Origin: an uncultured Alphaproteobacteria bacterium
Lineage (GTDB): Bacteria; Pseudomonadota; Alphaproteobacteria; Rs-D84
Assembly: GCA_947175875.1 (NCBI GenBank)
Contig: CAMWON010000004.1
Location: 62,001-126,000, forward strand
DNA: 64,000 bases
Reading direction: 5' to 3'
Shown here piece by piece: positions 1,201-58,960 of this stretch. The first letter of the stretch is position 1. Every line of letters begins with the position of its first letter. Made by a program: the position numbers and the translations under genes. The notes below the pieces were generated by a model. It had not been told where the DNA came from and made no database searches. It saw nothing but the letters and a program-made list of their open reading frames with translations.

Positions 1201-1227
1201 AAAAAACGCCCAAACGGGCGTTTTTTT
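1201..1227 (-). terminator. Intrinsic terminator of the small secreted-protein gene
   Basis: AACGCCC-AAA-CGGGCGTT stem with an A-run on one side and a T-run on the other, so it could work in both directions. It overlaps the stop codon of the leftward gene at 1226. Confidence 0.8.
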
Positions 1228-1543
1228 ACCTTAAACCCTTTGCACGGCAACAGCTTGACGCCGCCGTTTTCCAATCAGAGTACTGTTTTGACGGGTCGCG
1301 CAAATCTTTCCATGCCTGCCAGCCGCTGCATTTTTTGTTTGCGCCCGTGCCGGTGCATTTGGCATAGCGGCGCAGAGAGCATGTCTGATTTGAAACCTTG
1401 CCCGTGTCGGTGGTGCATTTTACGACAACGTTCTGGTTTTTTGCGTCGTTTTGCCCCAGTTCTTTGGACGACATTACCTGGTACGCATTTGCCGCGGTCA
1501 GTGCCGTGCCACAGATTAAAATTGCCGTTAATATTTTTTTCAT
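1226..1543 (-). CDS. Small secreted Cys-rich protein, unknown
   Basis: 105 residues. The N-terminus MKKILTAILICGTALTAANA is a clear type I signal peptide with a probable cut after ANA. The mature part of about 85 residues has six cysteines, an even number consistent with disulfides in the periplasm or outside the cell, and two W-containing patches (SGWQAWKDL and YSDWKTA). I recognise no family. A 65-bp gap separates it from the stop of the next upstream leftward gene (1609), and it has its own terminator. It may be the last gene of the 1609-7946 operon or independent. Confidence 0.7.
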   Translation of the reverse strand: MKKILTAILICGTALTAANAYQVMSSKELGQNDAKNQNVVVKCTTDTGKVSNQTCSLRRYAKCTGTGANKKCSGWQAWKDLRDPSKQYSDWKTAASSCCRAKGLR

Positions 1544-1608: not shown

Positions 1609-3234
1609 TTATCTGGTCAGGGGCCGGGCCGGCTCCACATGACAGCCGTTTTCTCGCATCAATTTTACCCCGTTCATCCAGCCTTTTAAAAAGACTTTGC
1701 GTTTCGGATTATGCTCGGTAATGTTCACATAATATTGCTGCAGGGTGTCCCAATACGCGTTATGCAAATCGCCGTTAAAATTCTCGGCTGCCTGAATCAG
1801 TTCGCTGTCAACCTTGCCCGTTTCCTTTAATCCCAGTGTCTTTTGCAGCTTTTTCACGCCTGCCCCCGGGCCAGATGCGAAATCACCGCGCAGTACGTCG
1901 CCGCGAATGGCATCAGGCAGTTTGTCAATGCCCCTGGCCTTGTAAAATCGTTCGTATGTGCGGTCTTCGGCCCCACCGCGCGTTAATTTGCGCACATCTA
2001 TATCAGGATTGTAATTTTGTGCATATCCGTAACATGTGTAGCCGCCCGGGTCGTTGGGATGACTGCCGCAGTCGCCTTCGACGCGAAAGATTTGAACCAT
2101 CATTTTTTCAAATGCGGGGTCTATTTGCTCGTATTTACCGGTTGTTAATATTTTGTTTTTGAAAATATTGCTGTGTGTTGACGGGGTGCACGGGCCGTCA
2201 TGTACACGATTGTTCGCCATTACCGTGGTCGGGGCCGAAGACGTATTCGGGGCCGCGGCGGGCGCCATTGCAATGGCTGGTGTGTTTTGTTGCGCGGGTG
2301 TGTTGGCGGTGGGATTTTGTGACGCTTGGATGCCGGATTGTGTACCTTGGGTTTGTTTCTCGGGACCGTCGCCGATTGCGATAATTTCCTGTTCGCGGCC
2401 ACGGTCCTGGGGGCATCTGGCCTCATCAAAATACTTGGCGCAGTATTCTTCGTTCGACATCTGTATTGCATCAATTTGGCGGCGCGCTTCAAGTGTTTCG
2501 AGTTGACGCGTTAACGCCTTTTGCTCGCTTTCAACATCAATTCCGTTATATGCCTTTGCATCCTTGTACGGCGCGTATCCGGCGGCCAGATTCTCCATGC
2601 GGTCCGCGAACGATACGTCGTTTATCGTTGTCGGGAATGCCGCTTTTGCTATATGCTCCGTCCCTGCTCCATTCTGGGATTGTAATTGCTGTAATTCTAT
2701 CGCGCGTTCTTTTACATCATTGGCCCAATCGGGTACTTTTGGTGCATACGGATTGTTTATTTTAAATTCATTCTGCTGTTGTATATTCGCCGCACCTGTT
2801 GCCGCTGGGAATGCAGAGGGTTGCACAACGTTTGCATATTGTTTTACGTAAGTATCAAAGGCTGTGTCAATATATCCCGCACAAGACGACGCATAGTTAT
2901 GCCCCGGCATACGCGACAGCTCCAGCATAATCGCCGGTCGTACATCCGCCACCCGCATTCCGTTACAGTTGTTGTTCGCGGCGCATTGCGATGCGACTAA
3001 ATTTGCGACGATTGTTTGACAATCCTGTGTATCAACCTCCGGCCCGGTGACATACACAGGCGACGGCATGATACGTTTATTATATTGCTGACCCGGACTC
3101 CAGAACGGATTGGTGGAATAGTTTTGGACGTTTTGAATCTGGCCGTATTGTGATAACGGAGCCGCGCGCGCGGCGCAGCAACATGCGGTTGCTGCGCAAT
3201 AAAATGTTAAAAGACCAAATGTCGTTTTTTTCAT
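1609..3234 (-). CDS. Exported fusion protein with C-terminal GH108-type muramidase
   Basis: 541 residues. The start is ATG 3234, which overlaps the previous stop as ATGA (translational coupling); an earlier in-frame start only adds MDNRRRRK. Layout: signal peptide (about 1-24), a Cys-containing module (about 25-228) identical to that of the protein at 6520-7437, a low-complexity Gln/Thr/Pro/Ala linker (about 290-345), and a C-terminal lysozyme domain. The last has VEGDCGSHPNDPGG and YTCYGYAQ, matching the E-G-x-NDPGG-x-T-x-YG core of GH108 endolysin-like N-acetylmuramidases, then a peptidoglycan-binding-type tail with GVKKLQKTLGL. The predicted role is local cell-wall cleavage in the envelope. 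It is the last gene of a five-gene operon. Confidence 0.82.
   Translation of the reverse strand: MKKTTFGLLTFYCAATACCCAARAAPLSQYGQIQNVQNYSTNPFWSPGQQYNKRIMPSPVYVTGPEVDTQDCQTIVANLVASQCAANNNCNGMRVADVRPAIMLELSRMPGHNYASSCAGYIDTAFDTYVKQYANVVQPSAFPAATGAANIQQQNEFKINNPYAPKVPDWANDVKERAIELQQLQSQNGAGTEHIAKAAFPTTINDVSFADRMENLAAGYAPYKDAKAYNGIDVESEQKALTRQLETLEARRQIDAIQMSNEEYCAKYFDEARCPQDRGREQEIIAIGDGPEKQTQGTQSGIQASQNPTANTPAQQNTPAIAMAPAAAPNTSSAPTTVMANNRVHDGPCTPSTHSNIFKNKILTTGKYEQIDPAFEKMMVQIFRVEGDCGSHPNDPGGYTCYGYAQNYNPDIDVRKLTRGGAEDRTYERFYKARGIDKLPDAIRGDVLRGDFASGPGAGVKKLQKTLGLKETGKVDSELIQAAENFNGDLHNAYWDTLQQYYVNITEHNPKRKVFLKGWMNGVKLMRENGCHVEPARPLTR
2552..3163. repeat. 612-bp perfect direct repeat, copy 1
   Basis: Reading both copies, every base from 2552 to 3163 matches 6755-7366 (constant offset 4203). 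The match ends with T2551 against C6754 on one side and diverges completely after GCC 3163/7366 on the other. In both genes the block spans codons about 25-228, starting just after the signal peptide. Confidence 0.95.
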
Positions 3235-4997
3235 TTTGCGCCGTCGGCGGTTGTCCACGGTTCGTCATTCATTATCAGATAGTACAATGCGCTGTCGGCT
3301 GTGCCCGGATTTCGAATAACGGGGCGCACAACATATATATCCACGTTGCAATGATGCGTGCCGTCTTCTTCCTGTTGCGTTAACAAATCCTGCCAGGTTT
3401 TTTCTGCGAAATCCATCGCCTGCAGGTATGCGGCGTCATCGTCGGCAGCACTGACCGAATCGCCGGCCCACATTAACCACATGCCGTAGTTGACAACGTT
3501 TTCCTGTCCTTTTATATCGTCCGCCGACAGCAGCAACAGCGGTTTGAAATCAATTCCGTTTGTATAGTCGCCCGTGCTGGTTTCGGTATAGTCATAAAAG
3601 TCGCCGGCAAATGTTATCGCGCCGTATAACAGGCCGCCCGCCTCTTCCATTTTTGCCAATTTGCCGATATTTTTTAGTGTAGAATGAAACAGCCAGTCGC
3701 GAACCTTGCCGGATGTTGCGCCGGAACGCGCCAGTTTTGAGCTGCGTTTCAGCAGTTTCCCGCCAGTGTTTGCGGCCTTGAAGCTGCGCCATGTGCGCGC
3801 CATTATGTTGCCGCGTTGCGCCGGGCGGCGAAGCGCCTGCAGATTATGGCGATATTTGTTTAGTTCTGAGAAGGTGTCGGCGTTTTTCTTGTACTGGCGC
3901 ACGTTGTCGTCGGCGCGTTCCATCTTGCGCATGGCGTCGCCCAGCTGCTTTACCTCATCCGATTTTTTTGCATATGCGGCGGCGTCTTTTGCTTTGTCCA
4001 ACTTTTTCAATTCTTCGGCGGCGCGTGTGTATTTCTGGCCAAGGCGCATATATTTTTGAACGGATTCGGTCTGGCGCAGTGTGCGCATAGATGCGCTTAA
4101 CCCCTTTAACGCCTTAGATGCGCGTGCCGCCTTGGTTGCGCCCAGGACCGCCGCCCCGCCCCCGAACGTGACGACCGTTATTACGACATCCAATGCGATT
4201 TCCAGATATGAAATCCACTGCAGATTGACGTCGCCCGCGACGTAATAATCGTTGGTATCCTCGCCTTCCGGCAGGCCGACCGTTCGGGTTACGGATTTGT
4301 TCAGCTCGTCACTATCAAGGGCAAGTGCGCTTTTACTGGTGCAATGATATCCTTTTGGATACAAATCATCGATGTTGTCGTTTATGTACTTCATCGATAT
4401 TGTGTTGTTTTTCCCCTCGCCCGCAAATTCACGCAGGGCGCCGTTTTGCACCACCATTATCCCGTACCATGCCGGATTTGTGTTGGTCCATACGGCCGCG
4501 TCGTCCGCGGCGCCGATGCGCGGGTTCGGGTTGTCGTCCGGCAGGCTGCGCTTGTTTGCGACCATTAAGCGCTGTTTTAAAACCTTTGGCTGGGTTTCAT
4601 AGTTCACAACTATCTTGCGGCCGCCGGGGAATGTGTATTCAATCGGTATGAATTTTATTGATTCCGCTTCATCCGCATTGGCAATTTCCGGACAAGCCAA
4701 CACCTGTTGCAGAACCTCAGGCTTTGAGAATGTGGTGTATATCCATTGCTGTACCTCTGTCTCGGGGGCGGTTTCGCTGATTCCGGATACGGTTGCGGCC
4801 AATGCGTCCGCAAAAGCCTTGGTCGCGCACTGTGTATCTGCGGTTTCGGTATAGAGTAATTCATCAATGGATACAAATCCCGGTGTTTCATTTTCCGTGT
4901 CGGGAATATCAATTCCGGCCACCGCATGCGATGCGCCCGGCGTCAGCAAGACCGCCAGCCCCAATAAAATGATACGAAGACGCCGGGTAATGTTCAT
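3231..4997 (-). CDS. Large exported protein with membrane-basic-membrane core, unknown
   Basis: 588 residues, no recognised family. Visible parts: signal peptide (1-25, cut near SHA), a soluble N-terminal region with scattered Cys (about 57, 101, 219), a hydrophobic helix at about 262-288 (LEIALDVVITVVTFGGGAAVLG), a long Lys/Arg-rich, probably coiled-coil stretch (289-449), a second weaker hydrophobic segment (452-466, GLLYGAITFAGDFYDY), and a soluble acidic tail with one Cys. The same order of parts occurs in the upstream gene at 5030-6523. Hydrophobic hairpins around basic helices occur in pore-forming and polymorphic-toxin translocation regions, but that is only an analogy. Its stop overlaps the start of the muramidase gene. 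Confidence 0.72.
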   Translation of the reverse strand: MNITRRLRIILLGLAVLLTPGASHAVAGIDIPDTENETPGFVSIDELLYTETADTQCATKAFADALAATVSGISETAPETEVQQWIYTTFSKPEVLQQVLACPEIANADEAESIKFIPIEYTFPGGRKIVVNYETQPKVLKQRLMVANKRSLPDDNPNPRIGAADDAAVWTNTNPAWYGIMVVQNGALREFAGEGKNNTISMKYINDNIDDLYPKGYHCTSKSALALDSDELNKSVTRTVGLPEGEDTNDYYVAGDVNLQWISYLEIALDVVITVVTFGGGAAVLGATKAARASKALKGLSASMRTLRQTESVQKYMRLGQKYTRAAEELKKLDKAKDAAAYAKKSDEVKQLGDAMRKMERADDNVRQYKKNADTFSELNKYRHNLQALRRPAQRGNIMARTWRSFKAANTGGKLLKRSSKLARSGATSGKVRDWLFHSTLKNIGKLAKMEEAGGLLYGAITFAGDFYDYTETSTGDYTNGIDFKPLLLLSADDIKGQENVVNYGMWLMWAGDSVSAADDDAAYLQAMDFAEKTWQDLLTQQEEDGTHHCNVDIYVVRPVIRNPGTADSALYYLIMNDEPWTTADGAK

Positions 4998-5029
4998 GTT
5001 CTGCTTCTTGGTTTTGCGGTGTTAATCGT

Positions 5030-6523
5030 TTAGTCGTCAATTCGTATCACATCTTCAATAATCATTGCAGAATCGTTTATTTCCAATGTGTCCGGGTCGT
5101 GTATAAAGTATCCGATATACATGTCAATGTCGTCCTCGTTCCAATCGCACGGGTGCTTGTCCTGAATTTTGGACATGTTGGCTTTGACTTTCTTTATCTG
5201 GTTGGCATCCATTACCAATTTTTTGCCCGTGTTTATCTCGTACAGATGATAGTCTGATTCGTTCACGCAATACTGTTTGCCCATGACCGGCTGTAACACG
5301 TTTGCATTTAGCATGTCCAATTTCCCTTTCCAGCCCGTCGGACTGTCGCCGCATACGGTATAGCAACCTTCGTTATGGTCCACGTCCTGGCAGTTTACTA
5401 TTTCCTTGTCGGCGTCACTGGACAGCAGACTGTACCCCAGGCCGGCGCCCTTGCCCCCCTGGTATATCAGGGCACCTGTGGCGGCCAGTGCGGTCCATTT
5501 GTTTTTCAGGTTTTTGCCTACAATCTTTACATAATTCTTTACACCGGCACGCAGAACGCCCTTGCCCGCATAGTTGTTCCAACCGCGCATGTTTGCCTTT
5601 AAGCCCAGTTTTACCGCGCTTTTTGCCAATTGTTTACCACCCTGTTTGCTTAATCTTTTTGCGGCAGCCTTGCCCCCGACCTTGGCCAGGGCGCGCGCGG
5701 ATGCCTTCAAGCCAGCGCCCAATGCCGCGCGTCCCGCGGCAACGGCGGCGCCGCCGGCGCCCCCGCCATAGAATGTTGCCACGGCCGCAACAGCGGTGAC
5801 TATCCACCCAACCGCATCAATTAACCCCTCGTAAGAACGATTGTTTTCGCAAACCAGGGCGCCGTATTTGCGCATGGTCTGGTCCATTACCTCAGATATT
5901 TCTTCCAAAATAGCGTCCCAATCAACGTCAATGCCCAGGTCTTTTTCCTCGACCTTTCCCGTTAGCTCGCTTAGCGGTTTTTGATATTTGGTCAGCTGTG
6001 GATCGTTGTCGCCCAGGAAATTGATTACAAACGCGTCGTCCAGCCATGTTTTATCGGACACTTTGTGCGCGCTTACATAACTGGTCGCCAATGCTTTGAA
6101 AAACGCTTCCTGTTCTTTTGTATCCGGGCCCAATGCCTTTATTATCAATTCTATGATTTCAGCATCGCTCATCATTTCGGCGTTGCCGGAATCATTGTTC
6201 AATGGTGCGCCGCCGTTTTTAATAATTTCGCGCACGGTTGCCCAATTTATTGCTATGTTTACGCCGTCAATTTGTGTCGATATGTCGCGTTTGAACCTAT
6301 CGGCATAGTTTGTGCAGTTCGGTGCCGACATTATTGCATTGGCCATTGCCTGGTTAAAATTTACGGTAAGGCCACTTTGTGCATCGGTAAAAGATTGGTA
6401 CAGTTCGCATGCAACCAGGCCGTCGCAATCGCCGGAATATGTTTGACAGTCATTGGAGATGGCAAATACGCCGGTCGGAATTACAAAACATAAAAGCATC
6501 AGCAGATTGCGTAAGAATTTCAT
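5030..6523 (-). CDS. Large exported protein with Gly/Ala-rich membrane core, unknown
   Basis: 497 residues. Signal peptide 1-21 (VIPTGVFA), an N-terminal domain with six Cys before residue 230, a Gly/Ala-rich hydrophobic stretch at about 236-272 (VGWIVTAVAAVATFYGGGAG), a strongly basic amphipathic region (273-341), a second hydrophobic segment (342-367), then a Cys-containing C-terminal domain rich in Asp. The start ATG 6523 overlaps the stop of the preceding gene as ATGA. The plan mirrors the 588-residue protein downstream, suggesting paralogs or partners in one envelope assembly. No enzymatic motif is visible. Confidence 0.72.
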   Translation of the reverse strand: MKFLRNLLMLLCFVIPTGVFAISNDCQTYSGDCDGLVACELYQSFTDAQSGLTVNFNQAMANAIMSAPNCTNYADRFKRDISTQIDGVNIAINWATVREIIKNGGAPLNNDSGNAEMMSDAEIIELIIKALGPDTKEQEAFFKALATSYVSAHKVSDKTWLDDAFVINFLGDNDPQLTKYQKPLSELTGKVEEKDLGIDVDWDAILEEISEVMDQTMRKYGALVCENNRSYEGLIDAVGWIVTAVAAVATFYGGGAGGAAVAAGRAALGAGLKASARALAKVGGKAAAKRLSKQGGKQLAKSAVKLGLKANMRGWNNYAGKGVLRAGVKNYVKIVGKNLKNKWTALAATGALIYQGGKGAGLGYSLLSSDADKEIVNCQDVDHNEGCYTVCGDSPTGWKGKLDMLNANVLQPVMGKQYCVNESDYHLYEINTGKKLVMDANQIKKVKANMSKIQDKHPCDWNEDDIDMYIGYFIHDPDTLEINDSAMIIEDVIRIDD

Positions 6524-7437
6524 TGCTGCGCCTTTTTTAATGCATCAACCAGCGCCTGGATTACGCGCTGTCTTTGTTGGTCGTTTGCCTGTTGTTGCTG
6601 TTGCTGGGTTTGGCAATATTGTGTGTCACTTGGATATTTTTCGCAATATTCCAGTGGTTTCATCTGCAACTTGTCCAGTTGTTGTCGGGCCTGGGCCATT
6701 TGCAGACGGCGCGTCATCGCGTCCTGCTGTTTTTCCACCTTTATTCCGTTATACGCCTTTGCATCCTTGTACGGCGCGTATCCGGCGGCCAGATTCTCCA
6801 TGCGGTCCGCGAACGATACGTCGTTTATCGTTGTCGGGAATGCCGCTTTTGCTATATGCTCCGTCCCTGCTCCATTCTGGGATTGTAATTGCTGTAATTC
6901 TATCGCGCGTTCTTTTACATCATTGGCCCAATCGGGTACTTTTGGTGCATACGGATTGTTTATTTTAAATTCATTCTGCTGTTGTATATTCGCCGCACCT
7001 GTTGCCGCTGGGAATGCAGAGGGTTGCACAACGTTTGCATATTGTTTTACGTAAGTATCAAAGGCTGTGTCAATATATCCCGCACAAGACGACGCATAGT
7101 TATGCCCCGGCATACGCGACAGCTCCAGCATAATCGCCGGTCGTACATCCGCCACCCGCATTCCGTTACAGTTGTTGTTCGCGGCGCATTGCGATGCGAC
7201 TAAATTTGCGACGATTGTTTGACAATCCTGTGTATCAACCTCCGGCCCGGTGACATACACAGGCGACGGCATGATACGTTTATTATATTGCTGACCCGGA
7301 CTCCAGAACGGATTGGTGGAATAGTTTTGGACGTTTTGAATCTGGCCGTATTGTGATAACGGAGCCACGGCATGCGCGGCACTTATGCCAGCCATGGCAC
7401 ATAGGCTAACGATAAAATGCCGAAAGTTTATTCTCAT
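6520..7437 (-). CDS. Exported protein sharing the duplicated N-terminal module
   Basis: 305 residues. Signal peptide 1-24 (MAGISAAHAVA region) is followed by the module identical to that of the GH108 fusion protein (residues about 25-228, beginning APLSQYGQIQNVQNYSTN, with Cys pairs QDCQ and QCAANNNC). It then has a unique Gln-rich, probably helical tail (KQQDAMTRRLQMAQARQQL) ending in KKAQQ. The tail has coiled-coil character. I recognise no family. It lies between the prepilin-peptidase-like gene (23-bp gap) and the 497-residue protein (4-bp overlap), so the genes are co-translated and probably act together. Confidence 0.75.
   Translation of the reverse strand: MRINFRHFIVSLCAMAGISAAHAVAPLSQYGQIQNVQNYSTNPFWSPGQQYNKRIMPSPVYVTGPEVDTQDCQTIVANLVASQCAANNNCNGMRVADVRPAIMLELSRMPGHNYASSCAGYIDTAFDTYVKQYANVVQPSAFPAATGAANIQQQNEFKINNPYAPKVPDWANDVKERAIELQQLQSQNGAGTEHIAKAAFPTTINDVSFADRMENLAAGYAPYKDAKAYNGIKVEKQQDAMTRRLQMAQARQQLDKLQMKPLEYCEKYPSDTQYCQTQQQQQQANDQQRQRVIQALVDALKKAQQ
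6755..7366. repeat. 612-bp perfect direct repeat, copy 2
   Basis: Partner of 2552-3163. Absence of even synonymous differences means a very recent duplication or ongoing gene conversion between two genes of the same operon. Confidence 0.95.
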
Positions 7438-7460: not shown

Positions 7461-7946
7461 TTATAACAAAAACGCAATTCCAAGGAAAGACAAAATTCCA
7501 CCAATTACAAAGAACGGTGCAAAAGGAATATATTTCTGTTTTTTACAGTACCCCCAGCCGCCCCCCAAAACGCATGCCGCGACCAAGGCCCATGCCAGAC
7601 CGGTCGGCCCCAGCCATATGCCGCCTGTCGCGATGAGCTTTATGTCGCCCATTCCAATCGGGGCGACGACGTCGGGGTTCTTTTTGCGCATTACGTAATC
7701 AAACGCAAAGCCGACCAGCGCCGCCAGCGCGTATCCGAACGCGGCACCCATGGCGGCGGCCTGGGTGTTGTGGGGCCACGGGAAAAAGGTCGTTATAATC
7801 AGCCCGGCGATAAGCAACGGGAATAAAAAAGCGTCCGGAATTATGCGCCGACGCCAGTCTGCGGCGGATATTTGGTACATGCACCACAGGGCGCCCGCCA
7901 ATAAAACGCCGAAGAATCCGTAATATAATATTGTATAATAATTCAT
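7461..7946 (-). CDS. Prepilin peptidase-like membrane aspartyl protease (A24, CpaA type)
   Basis: 161 residues from ATG 7946, which follows a CAAGGGGGAA ribosome site; longer in-frame starts give an implausible N-terminus. A24 features: Asp30 in SAADWRRRIIPD (D-x4-IP[N/D] motif) and Asp101 in IGMGDIKL (GxGDxK), the two catalytic Asp, within five to six hydrophobic helices. It lacks the N-terminal methylase domain of PilD, like the short CpaA/TadV enzymes. These cleave class III signal peptides of pilins or pseudopilins. No pilin-like gene is visible nearby, so its substrate is unknown. It is the first gene of the operon that ends with the muramidase. Confidence 0.85.
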   Translation of the reverse strand: MNYYTILYYGFFGVLLAGALWCMYQISAADWRRRIIPDAFLFPLLIAGLIITTFFPWPHNTQAAAMGAAFGYALAALVGFAFDYVMRKKNPDVVAPIGMGDIKLIATGGIWLGPTGLAWALVAACVLGGGWGYCKKQKYIPFAPFFVIGGILSFLGIAFLL

Positions 7947-10773: not shown

Positions 10774-10998
10774 CGTCGACGGGTGTTCCGTCGGCGGGGT
10801 GTCAGAACCTCTGCTTTGGCGTCGGACAATGGGGGCGCAACGCGCCTTTTTTGATACGACGAAAAACAAACTCCTGAACCGCGGGTCAGGAGGGTTGCGA
10901 ATATATTGAATAAGCACACAATTCCAAAGATTGTTCTGAACCTCCTGACCACCAAATTTTGGTGGTTTTTTCGTTTCGAAAAACAGGAGAAAAGAATA
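10774..10998 (+). ncRNA. Structured 5' leader, type A copy 1 (candidate attenuator/riboswitch)
   Basis: Predicted elements: P1 CCGTCGACGG/CCGTCGGCGG (10773-10797, loop GTGTT); P2 GGGGT/ACCTC (10796-10811); P3 GGCGC/GCGCC plus TTTTTT (10834-10852), terminator-like; a CTCCTGA (10871-10877) pairing with b TCAGGAG (10886-10892); c CCTCCTGAC (10941-10949), which is complementary to b over nine bases; terminator-like ACCACC/GGTGGT plus T-tract (10948-10971). Then CAGGAG and ATG 10999. Segment b is also an AGGAGGG ribosome site for an in-frame TTG at 10906 (MNKHTIPKIV...). Stems keep pairing while sequences change in copies A2 and A3. Structure and function are inferred by eye. Confidence 0.72.
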
Positions 10999-31770: not shown

Positions 31771-31796
31771 CAACCGCCCCCGCAGGGACGGCGTGC
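31771..31796 (-). terminator. rnpB terminator
   Basis: On the minus strand GCCGTCCC-TGC-GGGGGCGG then TTGTTTTATT, just after the RNase P RNA 3' end. Confidence 0.75.
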
Positions 31797-32115
31797 AGAT
31801 GCACTATAAGCCGGATTCTGTACTGCCGCGGGCCCAGTCTTTTCACAACCACGCCCGGGTAGCGAACATAATTAATCTGCATTTCGTGTTACCACGAATG
31901 TCAAGCCTTCTACCCGCCCCCAATCCTGGGACTGGTCACAGGGGGCCTATTTGAAGTTGCTGCGCATAGAGATTGGCCGTTTCACTCGAACTAAATCGAT
32001 TCGTCACTGTTCCTCTAATCGTCGGGTTGCCCCGCCCGGTCATTAGCCGGTATGCCGTCCCATGCAGTCCGGACTTTCCTCCAACCCTGTGGGGTCAGCT
32101 ATGTCCCGCGCATCT
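31797..32115 (-). ncRNA. rnpB: RNase P RNA (M1), bacterial type A
   Basis: Minus strand. 5' conserved region GGAGGAAAGTCCGGACT (near 32075), the universal ACAGAATCCGGCTTATAG near the 3' end (31806-31826), and an AGATGC/GCATCT helix joining the ends (P1). GGGGCAACCC and CCCGGGTAGC-type internal pieces are as in proteobacterial M1. It is the catalytic subunit that matures tRNA 5' ends. End points are estimated from P1. It occupies the gap between tolA and the 1896-residue gene. Confidence 0.93.
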
Positions 32116-32242
32116 TACGCGTGCAATACTAACAGCAATAAAAAAAAATTCAAATAAAATTGCGTAGGCGATATATTTTTTTGCTTGAACCGTTTCCATG
32201 ATTTTTTCTATGATTAGTATCAGAGAAAAAAAGTGGGGAATT

Positions 32243-35200
32243 ATGTCCAAAATTATACGCGTTTTTGCGTGCTTGTTCACGTTGTTTTTTGTAGGCTCTG
32301 CATATGCGGCGGGATATACCTGTAACGATTTAAAGAAATATACGTCGTGTTCGTCCGGGTATTATATGACCAAGGGCGGCACTTATAATGCTACGCCCCA
32401 AGTTGGCAATGCCTGTACGGCGTGTACATCGGGATGTACGTGCGCCGGCGGAACTGCGGCGCCGGTGTGCGGCAAGACATGTAGCGCTGGAACTTATTGG
32501 AACGGCAGTGCATGTACGACATGCCCCAACGGATATTATTGTCCCGGATTTTCAAATGTTCAAAGCCCGGCGACAAATTACGGGCGTAATGCGTGCCCGA
32601 CCGCAAGTACGTCAACCGAGGCGGCATCGTCGGCTTATCCGGATGTGTTTTATCCATATAAATCGATATCAGGTTCGGTTGATAAAACGACAACGCCCAC
32701 CCGCACTCTATTTAAGAATCAGGCGTTTGGAACAGGCTGGGCAACCATCAATGACTGTAAGGCGTCATATAAGTTTTCAGGCGCCGGTGGTTTTGTGTAT
32801 TCGGATGGTGTGCGCTATAATTCTTCGACCGGTAAATACGATAACTTCTCCGGTGCGGATATATATTATGACAGTGCCAAGGCCGGTTATTACCTGTACA
32901 CCAAGTACAACGATACATATTGCAATACATCTACAAACAAGATGTTGTATAGAAAGGTCATTTATTGTCCGGGTGGCTCGTATTGTCCGGGCGGTTCGGT
33001 TCCACAGTGCAGCACCGGTACGCATAACAACGAATGGGGACGAACAACGTGTCCGGGGACTTCTGCGACGTCATCCGTTTCAACGTGGCATTCGGCGTTC
33101 ATAGCCGGTGGTGAAACCGCGCGTGCAACAAAAGTCGGGGACTGTTTGGCGCATGATATGGCCTTTACAAATATTAACGGTGGTGCCGGAACACGTCGCT
33201 GTTATTATACCAGCGGCAGTGGCACAACCGCGACATATTCAACAAATTGCCATTATTACAAGTACACTTCATGTAATGCCGGGTATTATATGACCTATAA
33301 CGGGGCCGCAAACAGTACGTCCCAAGTTGGCAACGCGTGTACCGCGTGTGCGGCCGGAACATATAAATCCGCCGCGGGAACCGGAACGTGTACGGCATGT
33401 GCGATAGGTTCGTACAGCTCGTCGGGTGCATCCAAGTGTACGGCGTGTACTGGTGGGAAAACAACCACCGCCACCGGCCAGTCGTCATGTGCCGCAACAT
33501 GTACAAACGCCACCGGGGCCAGCACATGGACCGCCGCATCATGGTCGGCCAACAGCGTTACAAACAAGTGCGCGATTAACACATGCTCTACCGGATACAC
33601 CAAGGGCGGCACGGCCAGCAGTACCGGAACCAGCTCTTATACCTGTTCGGCGAACTGTAACGCGGTTACGCTGAATGCGACGACAAACGGCGGTTCTGCG
33701 AACACGACGGTTTATAAGCGCACCGGTTCCACAACATGGTACAGCAATAATACCTGTTCAACCTCTATAACCAGCATAACCAAACCGACCAAGACACACG
33801 CGACGTATGCGGGGCATTATAATACAAGCTCGAACTCCGGCGGGACGCAGTGCGTGACCGCGGCGGGCGCGCTTAGCACATCGACGTCTTGCAACGTGAC
33901 GGGTTCGACGACGTTTTATGCGCGATACAACTGCAACACCGGATATACCGCCAGCGGTACGACCATCGCCGGAACCTGTGCGGCAAACTGTATCGCCGTA
34001 ACATTGAACAATACGCAAAACGGCGGTACCGGTGGTACGACCACCCTGTACAAGCGTGTGGGCAGCACGACCATATATTCCGACAACGCCTGCTCCACGG
34101 CGTTGACGTTGGTCAAGCCGACCAAGACAAACGCGACGTATGCGGGCCATTACAACACGACGGCCACATCGGGCGGAACGCAGTGCGTGACATCGGCGGG
34201 CGCATGGAATTCGGGCTTTAATCCGACAGGTGCGACAACATGTTATGCACGATACAACTGTAATACCGGATGGACGGCCAGTGGCACAACGATTGCCGGC
34301 GCATGCGGTGCGACATGTAATGCGATTACAATGAACGCAACGCAAAACGGCGGCAGCGGCACTGCAACGACGTTGTATAAAAAGTCCGGCTCCACAACGT
34401 GGTACAGCAATAATACCTGCTCTACGACGATTACCACCCTGTCGTCGCGCCCGACCAAGACACATGCGACATATGCGGGACACTATAATACCACAGGTGC
34501 ATCCGGTGGAACGCAGTGTGTAACAGCGGCGGGCGCGCTTAGCACATCAACGTTATGCAACGTGACAGGCGCAACCACGTTTTATCCGCAGTTTACATGT
34601 AATACGGGTTGGACCAATGCAGGTACGCGTATTGCCGGGACCTGTACCGCGACAACGAATACAATAACGCTGAATAAAAACGGTGGTACGGGTACCTGTG
34701 GCGGCCAAAGCAGCACAACAAGCGGCAGCACGACATGTACCACGGGCAGTACCAAGTCTTTGCCGACATGGGACAGCAGCACGTGTAACATAACCAACGG
34801 AAACAAGATATTCAAAGGCTGGTCCACCAACAGCAGCGCAACCAGTGGTTCCACGTCCATAACATGTCCGACAGGCGCCACGACATACTATGCCGCATGG
34901 GCAACACCGACATGCAGTGCGACGAACGGAACGTGCGCGATGACCACCCCCAGTGGTAATGCACCGCGCGCTACTATAACCTGTAATACGGGATACAGCC
35001 AGTCCGGCGGTACAAACCGTACATCCAGCTTTACCGTCACAGGCAGTGCGGGCGGAACGTCAGTGTCCGGCACATGTTATGCGGTGACAAGTACGGTCAG
35101 CTTTAATTTGAACGGTGGCAGCGGCAACCAGCCGAACAATGTTACGGCCACATATGGCAGCAACATGCCGGCGCTTAGCACCAGTGCCAACCCGTCACGC

Positions 35201-37933
35201 ACCGGATATACTTTCGGTGGTTGGTATGACACCAGTGCCGCAACCGGTGGTACGCAGTACTATAACACCAGCCGCGGCTCTGCGCGTACATGGAACAAGA
35301 CGGATGCAAATGTAACGCTGTATGCGCGCTGGACCGTGAACAGTTATACATGCGATGCAAAGTACTATTTGAACGGCACGACATGTACATTGTGCGAAGC
35401 GGGATATTCCTGTCCGTCATCACAGCAGACATATACGTACAACGGCGGAATCCAAGGCCGTACGTATTGCGCGGCCGGTACATATAACTCCGGCACCGGA
35501 AATACGTCATGTACGACATGTCCGGCGGGTAAATATTGTACGGGTGGTACAAATAATACGGCATGCCCGGCCGGAACCGCCCGCAGTGCAACCGGTGGTA
35601 AAGCATCCGGCGATTGTACCACGTGTGCGGCCGGAACTTATACCAGCACGACCGGCCAGACATCATGCGCCAGCTGTGGTTCCGGATATTATTGCACGGG
35701 CGGCTCTAACCGTACGGCATGCAGCTCGCTGACAGGGGTGTCGGTAAGCGGCGGCAGCTATACGTCCGTGTCGCCATATAACGCCAGCACGACGTGCCGT
35801 TATACCGCACCTACTCCGCCCAAGCCCACAAATTGTGCCACAGTATCTGTAAATCAGGTGTCCTATACCGGCAGTGCATGGTCGCCCAGTACGTACAATG
35901 TAACGGCCAATACCGGATATCATACATCCGGTAGCGGTACGGCCAGCCCGTCTTGTCCGGCGAACACATATACTGTGGTTTATAATAAAAATAACACCAG
36001 TGCGACAGGTACGACCGCGAACAGCAGTCATACATACGGTACCGCTAAGGCGTTGACATCCAACGGATACTCATTAAGCGGATATACGTTTAATCGCTGG
36101 ACGACGGCGGCTGACGGAACCGGGACCAAATACACGAATGGTCAAAGTGTCACAAATCTGACAACGACAAATGGCGGAACGGTAAATCTGTATGCCCAAT
36201 GGTGCCAGAATTGTGCGACCGTATCCAATGGCTCTTGTTCGCTAAGTGTTGCTGATGGCACATGTAAATATACAACCAGCTGTAATTCTGGCTATACAAT
36301 CAGTGGCAATGGTACGCGTAATCCGACCTGTACGGCAAACGGATATACCGTAACCTACAAGGCCGGCGATGGCGGCAGTGGCAGCGACCAGACGCAGTCG
36401 GTAACGTATAACGCAGACTTTACAACCAAGGCGGCAAATACGTTTACCAAGGCAAATGCGACGTTTGCCGGCTGGAGTGCCAGCAGTGGCAGCTATACAT
36501 CGGCGAATACATCGTATAAGTATACAACGGTCGGTAATGTTACGTTGACCGCCACTTGGAACTGTAACGCCGGATATACGCTGAACAGCAGCACAAGAGC
36601 ATGTGATCCATGCGCGGCGGGTATGTATAAGGGCTCGGCAGGCAATGGTGCATGTACAGCGTGTACCGGACGTACTAAATGGAGTGCGGCAGGCGCAAAG
36701 GCATGCAGTGATGTCGGTGCCGGGTATTACACCACGGGCTGCAACACCAGCGGCAATAACTGTACCGGCCGTACGCAGTGTTCGGGCTCCACATATTGTG
36801 TAAGCGGTGTTCGGAACGACTGTCCGGCGGCGGAAAGCACCTGGAGCCTGGGGACGGGAACGGGTTGGTCGGCGGTCACCAGCTGCTTTGAAACAAAGGC
36901 GGCCACAGCGGTTAGCACGTACTGCAGCGAGGGCCAGCTGAAGAAAAATGCTGGTTCGGACAGCAAATGGCCGACAACTGCCAGCATATCTGTCGCGTTC
37001 AAGGCAAAAGCGGGTTCGATAGTATCCGGTCAAACATGCACGCAGTGCACCGGCGCGACATACAGTGCGGGTGGCACGGCGACAGAATGCGCCGCCTGTC
37101 CGACAGGGTATGCGTCAAACACAACGGCGGGCAAGACGGCCATAGGCCAGTGCCAGGCGTCATGTGCGGCGGGATATGCGGTACAGACTGCGAACGAGGC
37201 CTGCAAGATAGTCGCCAGCGGTTATCAGACCGGCACGCACACCGTCAGCTATGGTTCCAAAACACCGACGGCGGCGGACAGCACCAGCCCGGCGGTGGGA
37301 ACATGGTACAGCTGTCTGACGAATTATAGCGCGTCAGGCACGGCGGCCGCAGACCATGATGCGCGCAGCGACTGTAAAATAAGCTGCGGCGCCGGTACAC
37401 GGATTGCGTCTGCGAACGCGACCAGCTGCACCACCCCCAGCGGGAACTGGTACGTCGGCGCGCACAGCGTCGCGGCAGGCAGCACATCGTCGGTCAGCAG
37501 CTGTCTGACGAACTATACAATCAGCGGTACCGCGGCGGCCAACCATGACGCGGCGTCGGACTGCAAGATAAGCTGTGGCGGTGGTGCGTATATTGCCAAG
37601 GCAAATGATACATCCTGTACGAATGTCGGGGCGGGATACTGGGCGGCGGCCGCGAGTGTGTCGCAAGGAAGCGCCGGCAGTCGTACGGCATGTGCGTCGG
37701 GCCTGACGACAATCGGGTACGGCGCGGGCGCGGACGAAGCGGCGGATTGCGGGCATATCCTGCATCTGGGCGACAGCAAGCTGTATCTGCGCAGTACGAA
37801 AAAGACCACGCCGTCGTTAAATGTAAAGATTGGCGACAGCACGTTCTATGGCAACATGAGTACGGCGACAAAGGGCAAGTTGCGCGTCAAGAAAGACAGC
37901 ACAACCTACAGTGTTCACGACGACAGCATGTAA
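32243..37933 (+). CDS. Giant repetitive Cys-rich surface protein
   Basis: 1896 residues from ATG 32243 (GGGGAATT upstream). Signal peptide ends VGSAYAA. Main parts: N-terminal Cys-rich segments with repeated CTAC motifs, like EGF/ephrin-receptor-type growth-factor-like repeats; about 115-residue tandem repeats (about 470-800) with YKR-GSTTWYSNNTCST and YAGHYNT cores; at least three Listeria-Bacteroides (Flg_new/InlB B) repeats with TVSFNLNGGSGNQP...GYTFGGWYDT...LYARW; further Cys-rich repeats; and a C-terminal domain of about 65 residues (CGHILHLGDSKLYLRS ... SLNVKIGDSTFYG ... LRVKKDSTTYSVHD), also found at the end of the protein at 52583. Probably a secreted adhesin-like protein. Ser/Thr/Gly/Asn composition is biased. 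Confidence 0.8.
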   Translation: MSKIIRVFACLFTLFFVGSAYAAGYTCNDLKKYTSCSSGYYMTKGGTYNATPQVGNACTACTSGCTCAGGTAAPVCGKTCSAGTYWNGSACTTCPNGYYCPGFSNVQSPATNYGRNACPTASTSTEAASSAYPDVFYPYKSISGSVDKTTTPTRTLFKNQAFGTGWATINDCKASYKFSGAGGFVYSDGVRYNSSTGKYDNFSGADIYYDSAKAGYYLYTKYNDTYCNTSTNKMLYRKVIYCPGGSYCPGGSVPQCSTGTHNNEWGRTTCPGTSATSSVSTWHSAFIAGGETARATKVGDCLAHDMAFTNINGGAGTRRCYYTSGSGTTATYSTNCHYYKYTSCNAGYYMTYNGAANSTSQVGNACTACAAGTYKSAAGTGTCTACAIGSYSSSGASKCTACTGGKTTTATGQSSCAATCTNATGASTWTAASWSANSVTNKCAINTCSTGYTKGGTASSTGTSSYTCSANCNAVTLNATTNGGSANTTVYKRTGSTTWYSNNTCSTSITSITKPTKTHATYAGHYNTSSNSGGTQCVTAAGALSTSTSCNVTGSTTFYARYNCNTGYTASGTTIAGTCAANCIAVTLNNTQNGGTGGTTTLYKRVGSTTIYSDNACSTALTLVKPTKTNATYAGHYNTTATSGGTQCVTSAGAWNSGFNPTGATTCYARYNCNTGWTASGTTIAGACGATCNAITMNATQNGGSGTATTLYKKSGSTTWYSNNTCSTTITTLSSRPTKTHATYAGHYNTTGASGGTQCVTAAGALSTSTLCNVTGATTFYPQFTCNTGWTNAGTRIAGTCTATTNTITLNKNGGTGTCGGQSSTTSGSTTCTTGSTKSLPTWDSSTCNITNGNKIFKGWSTNSSATSGSTSITCPTGATTYYAAWATPTCSATNGTCAMTTPSGNAPRATITCNTGYSQSGGTNRTSSFTVTGSAGGTSVSGTCYAVTSTVSFNLNGGSGNQPNNVTATYGSNMPALSTSANPSRTGYTFGGWYDTSAATGGTQYYNTSRGSARTWNKTDANVTLYARWTVNSYTCDAKYYLNGTTCTLCEAGYSCPSSQQTYTYNGGIQGRTYCAAGTYNSGTGNTSCTTCPAGKYCTGGTNNTACPAGTARSATGGKASGDCTTCAAGTYTSTTGQTSCASCGSGYYCTGGSNRTACSSLTGVSVSGGSYTSVSPYNASTTCRYTAPTPPKPTNCATVSVNQVSYTGSAWSPSTYNVTANTGYHTSGSGTASPSCPANTYTVVYNKNNTSATGTTANSSHTYGTAKALTSNGYSLSGYTFNRWTTAADGTGTKYTNGQSVTNLTTTNGGTVNLYAQWCQNCATVSNGSCSLSVADGTCKYTTSCNSGYTISGNGTRNPTCTANGYTVTYKAGDGGSGSDQTQSVTYNADFTTKAANTFTKANATFAGWSASSGSYTSANTSYKYTTVGNVTLTATWNCNAGYTLNSSTRACDPCAAGMYKGSAGNGACTACTGRTKWSAAGAKACSDVGAGYYTTGCNTSGNNCTGRTQCSGSTYCVSGVRNDCPAAESTWSLGTGTGWSAVTSCFETKAATAVSTYCSEGQLKKNAGSDSKWPTTASISVAFKAKAGSIVSGQTCTQCTGATYSAGGTATECAACPTGYASNTTAGKTAIGQCQASCAAGYAVQTANEACKIVASGYQTGTHTVSYGSKTPTAADSTSPAVGTWYSCLTNYSASGTAAADHDARSDCKISCGAGTRIASANATSCTTPSGNWYVGAHSVAAGSTSSVSSCLTNYTISGTAAANHDAASDCKISCGGGAYIAKANDTSCTNVGAGYWAAAASVSQGSAGSRTACASGLTTIGYGAGADEAADCGHILHLGDSKLYLRSTKKTTPSLNVKIGDSTFYGNMSTATKGKLRVKKDSTTYSVHDDSM
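33653..34640 (+). repeat. Tandem coding repeats, about 330 bp period
   Basis: Three imperfect units begin near 33653, 33985 and 34313 (periods 332 and 328), each encoding N-C-x-A-[VI]-T-[LM]-N ... YK-x-x-GST ... GGTQCVT ... YN/TCNTG. Divergence between units is moderate. Confidence 0.85.
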
Positions 37934-52346: not shown

Positions 52347-52582
52347 GTCGGTGAGAGTTTCGCCGATGGGGTGTCAGAACCTCTGCTTACGCGTCGTTGA
52401 TTAGTGGCGCAGTGCGCCTGTTTTTATATCGCGACGAAAAATAAACTCCTGAACCGCGGGTCAGGAGGGTTGCGAATATATTGAATAAGCACACAATTCG
52501 TAAGATTGTTCTGAACCTCCTGGCCACTCAAGTTTTGAGTGGTTTTTCATTTCGAAAAATAATTTTTAACGGGGCAACGACA
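52347..52582 (+). ncRNA. Structured 5' leader, type A copy 2
   Basis: P1 TCGGTGA/TCGCCGA (52348-52366, loop GAGTT), P2 GGGGT/ACCTC, P3 GGCGC-AGT-GCGCC plus TTTTT (52406-52425), a CTCCTGA (52446-52452), b GTCAGGAGG (52460-52468), c CCTCCTGGC (52516-52524), which still pairs with b through a G-U, terminator-like CCACTCAA/TTGAGTGG plus TTTTT (52524-52547). The in-frame TTG at 52481 (MNKHTIRKIV) lies 102 bases before ATG 52583. From CTCCTGAACC to CACACAATTC (about 50 bases) it is nearly identical to copy 1. Confidence 0.72.
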
Positions 52583-58717: not shown

Positions 58718-58960
58718 TTGTTCAATCTCCTGATGTTTTTCGAAATGAAAAACCACCCAAAATTGAGTGGTCAGGAGGTTGGAAACAATCGCTAGAATTG
58801 TGTGCTTATTCAATATATTCGCAGCCCTCCTGACCCGTATGGATTCAGGAGTTTGTTTTTCGTCGTAATAGTAAAAACGGCGCCTGTTTGCGCGCCACAA
58901 GAACATATTCCGACGCTAGCGTAGAGGTTTCCACACCTCATCATCGGAACACCCGATGAC
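58718..58960 (-). ncRNA. Structured 5' leader, type A copy 3
   Basis: Minus strand: P1 TCATCGG/CCGATGA (58959-58941, loop GTGTT), P2 GAGGT/ACCTC, P3 GGCGC/GCGCC with TTTTT (58896-58873), a CTCCTGA (58851-58845), b GTCAGGAGG (58834-58826), c CCTCCTGAC (58778-58770), terminator-like CCACTC/GGGTGG plus TTTTT (58770-58748). P1 has a sequence different from copies 1 and 2 yet pairs fully. The 311-bp gap 58717-59028 holds this leader, its promoter and the pfkA terminator. Confidence 0.72.

Follow-up and report, generated by a model that had tools for sequence, protein, structure and literature searches.

Two secreted proteins encoded in one operon of an uncultured gut alphaproteobacterium carry the same N-terminal module, and the two copies of this module have been homogenized at the DNA level separately in several species. 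Concerted evolution of the module by recurrent intrachromosomal gene conversion is the probable explanation. The process itself is known; what is found here is a real, well-supported case of it at the level of a protein module. In the window (the whole stretch of DNA analyzed, 64 kb), scanned at an offset of 4203, the copies form a single uninterrupted exact match of 612 nt, by far the longest near-perfect repeat present. The perfect 612-bp identity over codons ~25-228 of both genes that was reported in the preliminary description is borne out by this run, which starts with the final base of codon 24 in one gene (P4), reaches codon 228 there and lies in the same frame and on the same strand in the other (P1).

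The repeated block and its operon

The host genome (0.95 Mb) belongs to the Candidatus Enterousia group; the records related to it come from uncultured Alphaproteobacteria and from Candidatus Enterousia gut genomes. Genomes of Enterousia (order Rs-D84) measure about 1 Mb or less (PMC12306168), a published range that a size of 953 kb fits. A DNA search of all nine contigs placed the 612-nt block in two positions only, both on one 150-kb contig with unique flanks. The two genes are separated by two others, P3 and P2, in an operon with the order prepilin peptidase-P4-P3-P2-P1-X105 and with a divergent GcrA gene upstream (Table 1). The operon had previously been described as containing an export module, a label that its content does not support: it has a prepilin peptidase and no recognized export component.

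Table 1. Positions of the operon's genes, modules and repeated block in the window
Feature	Position	Strand	Basis
Prepilin peptidase-like gene, operon head	7461..7943	-	PF01478, 56.7 bits
P4, 305-aa secreted protein: signal peptide, N-module, PYKD module, helical tail	6520..7437	-	ORF, alignment
612-nt identical block, copy in P4 (codons ~25-228)	6755..7366	-	Exact run
N-module helical bundle in P4, residues 69-136, four invariant Cys	7030..7233	-	AlphaFold2 pLDDT ~90; invariant columns
PYKD module in P4	6610..6855	-	Profile A3, E=1.2e-36
P3, secreted protein, hydrophobic helices, fast evolving	5030..6523	-	
P2, secreted protein, conserved in almost all operons, without a known family above cut-off	3231..4997	-	
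P1: signal peptide, N-module, PYKD, low-complexity linker, GH108, PG_binding_3-like end	1609..3258	-	PF05838, 36.7 bits; alignment with relatives
612-nt identical block, copy in P1 (GH108 protein)	2552..3163	-	Exact run
PYKD module in P1	2407..2652	-	Profile A3, E=8.3e-37
GH108 catalytic domain of P1	1894..2094	-	PF05838 match
X105, conserved 105-aa secreted protein, operon tail	1226..1543	-	

P1, which could start at an ATG (3234; 541 aa) or at a GTG (3258; 549 aa), is a predicted GH108 muramidase, as had been proposed. Its PF05838 score exceeds the curated cut-off of 21.2 bits, a PG_binding_3-like part follows at its end, and the Glu-Gly motif, including the conserved Glu, is kept in all aligned GH108 proteins; which residue of this motif is catalytic in P1 we take from general knowledge of the family. 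Three other assignments were rejected: holin-dependent muramidase export of the TtsA type (NF040573, 25.5 vs 240 bits; no holin was identified in the P1-P4 operon), P3 as an SseC-type translocator (PF04888, 19.5 bits vs a cut-off of 30.2) and an Rhs/YD-repeat protein (no YD-repeat Pfam match in P1-P4).

The operon is modular. P4 was matched in 35/35 genomes of the same genus and in 0/24 others, with partial or weak matches in two of the former (G033 and G034), and is fused to P3-like sequence in several operons. Nine operons have GH108 as a separate protein of 350-380 aa that lacks the N-module, two have it fused to P2, and most others have no GH108 at the locus. The P2-GH108 fusions (L063:6341-9289 and L065:2520-5480) are single proteins of 982-986 aa, an arrangement that suggests that P2 and the muramidase act together. 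In one further genome (G003), the P4 gene encodes the N-module alone and a nearby gene on the opposite strand has a PYKD module and no Pfam domain (L056:8271-8864 and 3543-4679).

Several other elements were observed in the window. A four-tRNA array adjoins the operon (761-1144), RNase P RNA is encoded on the minus strand at 31791-32117, and a 1911-aa protein with Listeria-Bacteroides repeats (PF09479) is encoded at 32198-37933 (+), its gene having internal DNA repeats at 33704-34650. A dispersed element of ~119-200 nt occurs at 10775-10985 (+), 52347-52546 (+) and ~58734-58837 (-), with 27 matches in the 953-kb genome. Its core (CTCCTGA...TCAGGAGGGTTGCGAATATATTGAATAAGCACACAATTC...AACCTCCTG.CCAC) is invariant, its end resembles a terminator, and it is located either at genes predicted to encode secreted proteins or immediately upstream of them. 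For two copies, the fold is better than that of shuffled sequences (z ~-3), and no match to the element was found in Rfam; it is a candidate regulatory leader or mobile element.

Homogenization of the copies within genomes

P4 and P1 both carry the N-module in six genomes, each from a different species: that of the window, L071, L072, L074 (identical with contig C41 of G023), L076 and L078. The check for concerted evolution that had been proposed was run on these six, and the copies proved more alike within genomes (90.6-100%) than between them. The DNA identity of the two copies is 100% in the window (with one edge difference), 92.5% in L071, 99.5% in L072, 90.6% in L074, 99.5% in L076 and 100% in L078, whereas copies from different genomes share 52-78% (91-92% for the closest pair, the window and L071). 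The exact runs measure 612 nt in the window, 582 + 63 nt in L072, 629 + 47 nt in L076 and 656 nt in L078. At fourfold-degenerate sites, the window copies differ at 1/97, in an edge codon outside the 612-nt run, vs 35/93 between the window and L071, the closest species; the present identity is thus much younger than the split from L071. The last homogenization of the window copies would then have taken place well after their lineage parted from its closest sequenced relative.

The ends of the identical tracts are consistent with gene conversion. On the left, the tract stops just behind the signal peptide, where homology itself stops, in the window, L072 and L078; in L076 it continues into the signal peptide, so the earlier statement that the signal peptides are unrelated holds for the window's genome and fails for this relative. 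On the right, the tails of P4 and P1 had also been called unrelated, which proved incorrect: ~55 more residues align beyond the block (NGI.VE...LTR.L..AR.Q.D..QM..EYC.KY), homologous and diverged, as part of an ~84-aa module that we call PYKD. This correction matters because the conversion tracts end within this diverged segment, at a point that differs from species to species. Tract ends that vary inside homologous sequence are what gene conversion would be expected to leave.

Residues at the tract edges suggest transfer in both directions. The P4 of L071 has a P1-like ESEEKA where the window P4 has EKQQDA, which suggests transfer from P1 to P4, and the P1 of L072 has a P4-like EKPEDA at the tract edge, which suggests transfer from P4 to P1. 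When the donor was polarized over the whole block from L071, changes were equal in both copies. We infer from the edges that the N-module region (~200 codons) is copied between P4 and P1 in either direction, presumably by RecA-type exchange between the two direct repeats, which lie 4.2 kb from each other; RecA itself is present. Deletion of P3 and P2, the product expected of a crossover between the repeats, was not seen among the operons read.

Phylogenies point the same way. In a tree of 93 N-modules, a single clade of the six P1 copies was rejected (dlnL 998, p=2.6e-4), as was a P1 clade of the nearest trio (window, L071 and L072; p=4e-48), whereas the GH108 halves of the same proteins largely grouped and one clade was not rejected (p=0.41). 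Such discordance inside one protein is the product expected of gene conversion in its N-terminal half. In the window, L071 and L072, moreover, P1 has a distinctive signal peptide that the three share, and the joint is the same, so the two-copy state of this trio is older than their split; for all six genomes, a single origin is possible.

An unlikely alternative is that each lineage freshly copied the P4 N-module into a GH108 gene that had none, with PYKD as right-hand homology, and that no homogenization followed. On the operon tree (built from PilD, GcrA, P2 and X105), genomes with the N-module-GH108 state are scattered and four changes are required to explain it, GH108 proteins lacking the N-module are common, and the left joint of L076, inside the signal peptide, is unlike the others. 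These features would fit repeated capture, and part of the pattern may indeed be fresh capture rather than homogenization of one old pair. However, the signal peptide and joint of the window-L071-L072 trio predate its split and yet each of the three was homogenized separately, the L071 edge suggests transfer out of P1, and a single GH108 clade was not rejected. Repeated fresh capture in L076 and L078 is possible, and mechanistically it would be the same kind of non-reciprocal transfer.

An assembly artifact, with one copy written twice or two similar copies merged to a consensus, is very improbable. All of these genomes are metagenome assemblies, short-read assemblers can merge near-identical copies, and if copies that differ by a few percent were merged, an identity of 97-99% could rise to 100%. 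In G023, contigs break within the repeat: C41 and C39 end in 77-nt overlaps in the same region, a sign of unresolved assembly that calls for caution over this genome's mosaic of near-identical and diverged stretches. But both window copies lie on one long contig between unique flanks, and several separate studies have produced genomes with the same architecture, in frame and with species-specific sequences; in L071, the two copies are distinct and both are under selection. At the end of G023 C39, the 77 nt equal to the P4 interior are joined to the region upstream of GcrA (L035:11635-11711, L036 end), which is either an assembly tangle or a strain variant.

Slimmer still are the chances of a single, very recent partial duplication confined to this genome: it would readily yield 612 identical bases, but the same two-copy architecture and joint occur in L071 and L072, which refutes it unless both of these are artifacts, similar ones occur in three other species, and the L071 copies have diverged to a dS of 0.38. 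Of the two origins first envisaged, a very recent event or continuing gene conversion, the latter is thus favored. The L071 copies, 7.5% apart, differ almost only at silent sites (dN 0.011, dN/dS ~0.03), which places the module under purifying selection in both genes, but we give almost no credence to the idea that, with no exchange of DNA, such constraint on the protein has preserved the likeness of two old copies, since silent sites match too.

The PYKD module and possible docking

The PYKD module, which lies behind the N-module, has the pattern FP.T..D.SF..R....GY.PYKD..AY, and its profile (A3) was found in 35/35 genomes of the genus, one to five times in each, and in 0/24 other genomes. 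Outside P4, nearly all of the examples read have the arrangement signal peptide-PYKD-low-complexity linker-M23 peptidase, and a few are GH108 proteins; the window's genome has an M23-type PYKD protein on contig 3. PYKD is therefore a common N-terminal part of the secreted wall hydrolases of the genus, and it is also present in P4. Among the M23 and GH108 genes L172-L199, the PYKD part had no Pfam match in those scanned.

The PYKD segment itself may retain traces of exchange. The comparison covered seven genomes, two of which are close relatives, in which the GH108 protein has no N-module; between P4 and P1, a 50-codon PYKD segment had 54.2% DNA identity within genomes vs 49.7% across them, a difference reached in 2/5040 permutations. 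This likeness suggests either short conversion tracts or co-evolution with a shared partner.

The N-module is predicted by AlphaFold2 to form a small helical bundle with four invariant cysteines. P2, P3, P4 and the N-module had no family above cut-off in Pfam or NCBIfam, no convincing one in PHROGs and no convincing match in a PDB sequence search. For the P4 model, Foldseek gave no match at E<=0.001, and the Z scores from VIA reached at most 5.9; caenopore-5 was rejected as a fold relative, since Z 5.6 and an rmsd of 2.7 over 66 residues are in the chance range for helical bundles. The P2 model gave coiled-helix matches only, in its helical part.

With low certainty, the N-module and PYKD could be docking parts that a wall hydrolase has in common with its partner in the operon, holding wall hydrolases and P4 at the same envelope partner, perhaps P2 or P3. 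Docking of this kind might let GH108 cut peptidoglycan where the operon's proteins assemble; fold and family searches gave no match in support of a specific docking partner. A bolder reading, tentative and on the doubtful side, is that identity of the module is itself selected: P1 and P4 would co-assemble through identical N-modules, conversion would keep a fast-evolving interface matched, and PYKD would serve as a targeting tag specific to the genus, bringing wall hydrolases together at the envelope machine.

Relation to known systems and significance

The secreted M23 (LytM-type) endopeptidases of the genus resemble P1 in carrying PYKD behind a signal peptide and with a low-complexity linker, but they differ in having another catalytic domain, scattered loci and no N-module. 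A further comparison is with TtsA, a GH108 protein. TtsA is a muramidase needed for secretion of typhoid toxin (PMC6996933), and P1 is likewise a putative muramidase of the same type encoded alongside secreted proteins. Unlike TtsA, P1 has a signal peptide, an N-module and a PYKD module, and it falls far below the cut-off of the holin-associated model. In the Rhs family, homologous recombination diversifies proteins that combine a conserved core with C-terminal tips that vary (PMC2935791). P1 and P4 similarly have a common N-terminal part, different C-terminal ends and recombination in the common part, but they have no YD-repeat match, no tip arrays were seen, and here the C-terminal parts stay while the shared module is copied.

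The closest parallels are tufA/tufB, psbA/psbD and flagellin, bacterial paralogues with long-lasting concerted evolution, attributed for tuf to extensive gene conversion (PMC6053082). As in those cases, copies within a genome are recurrently closer than orthologues between species (PMC6053082). The bacterial cases that we found in the literature involve whole duplicated genes with the same function, whereas here one module is exchanged between two architectures in one operon. A sub-gene module has been homogenized repeatedly between two functionally different proteins, and their signal peptides and the catalytic part were left untouched. A literature search on gene conversion in peptidoglycan hydrolases returned nothing relevant.

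The setting, a poorly known operon in the very reduced genomes of uncultured gut bacteria, adds to the significance of the finding, as does an N-terminal module on GH108 and M23 hydrolases that matches no library family and, among the genomes searched, occurs in this genus only. If the shared module is an interaction surface, the operon is a natural setting in which to test whether matched interfaces are maintained by gene conversion. If identity of the module is selected, conversion would be a DNA-level route by which an enzyme co-evolves with its envelope machine.
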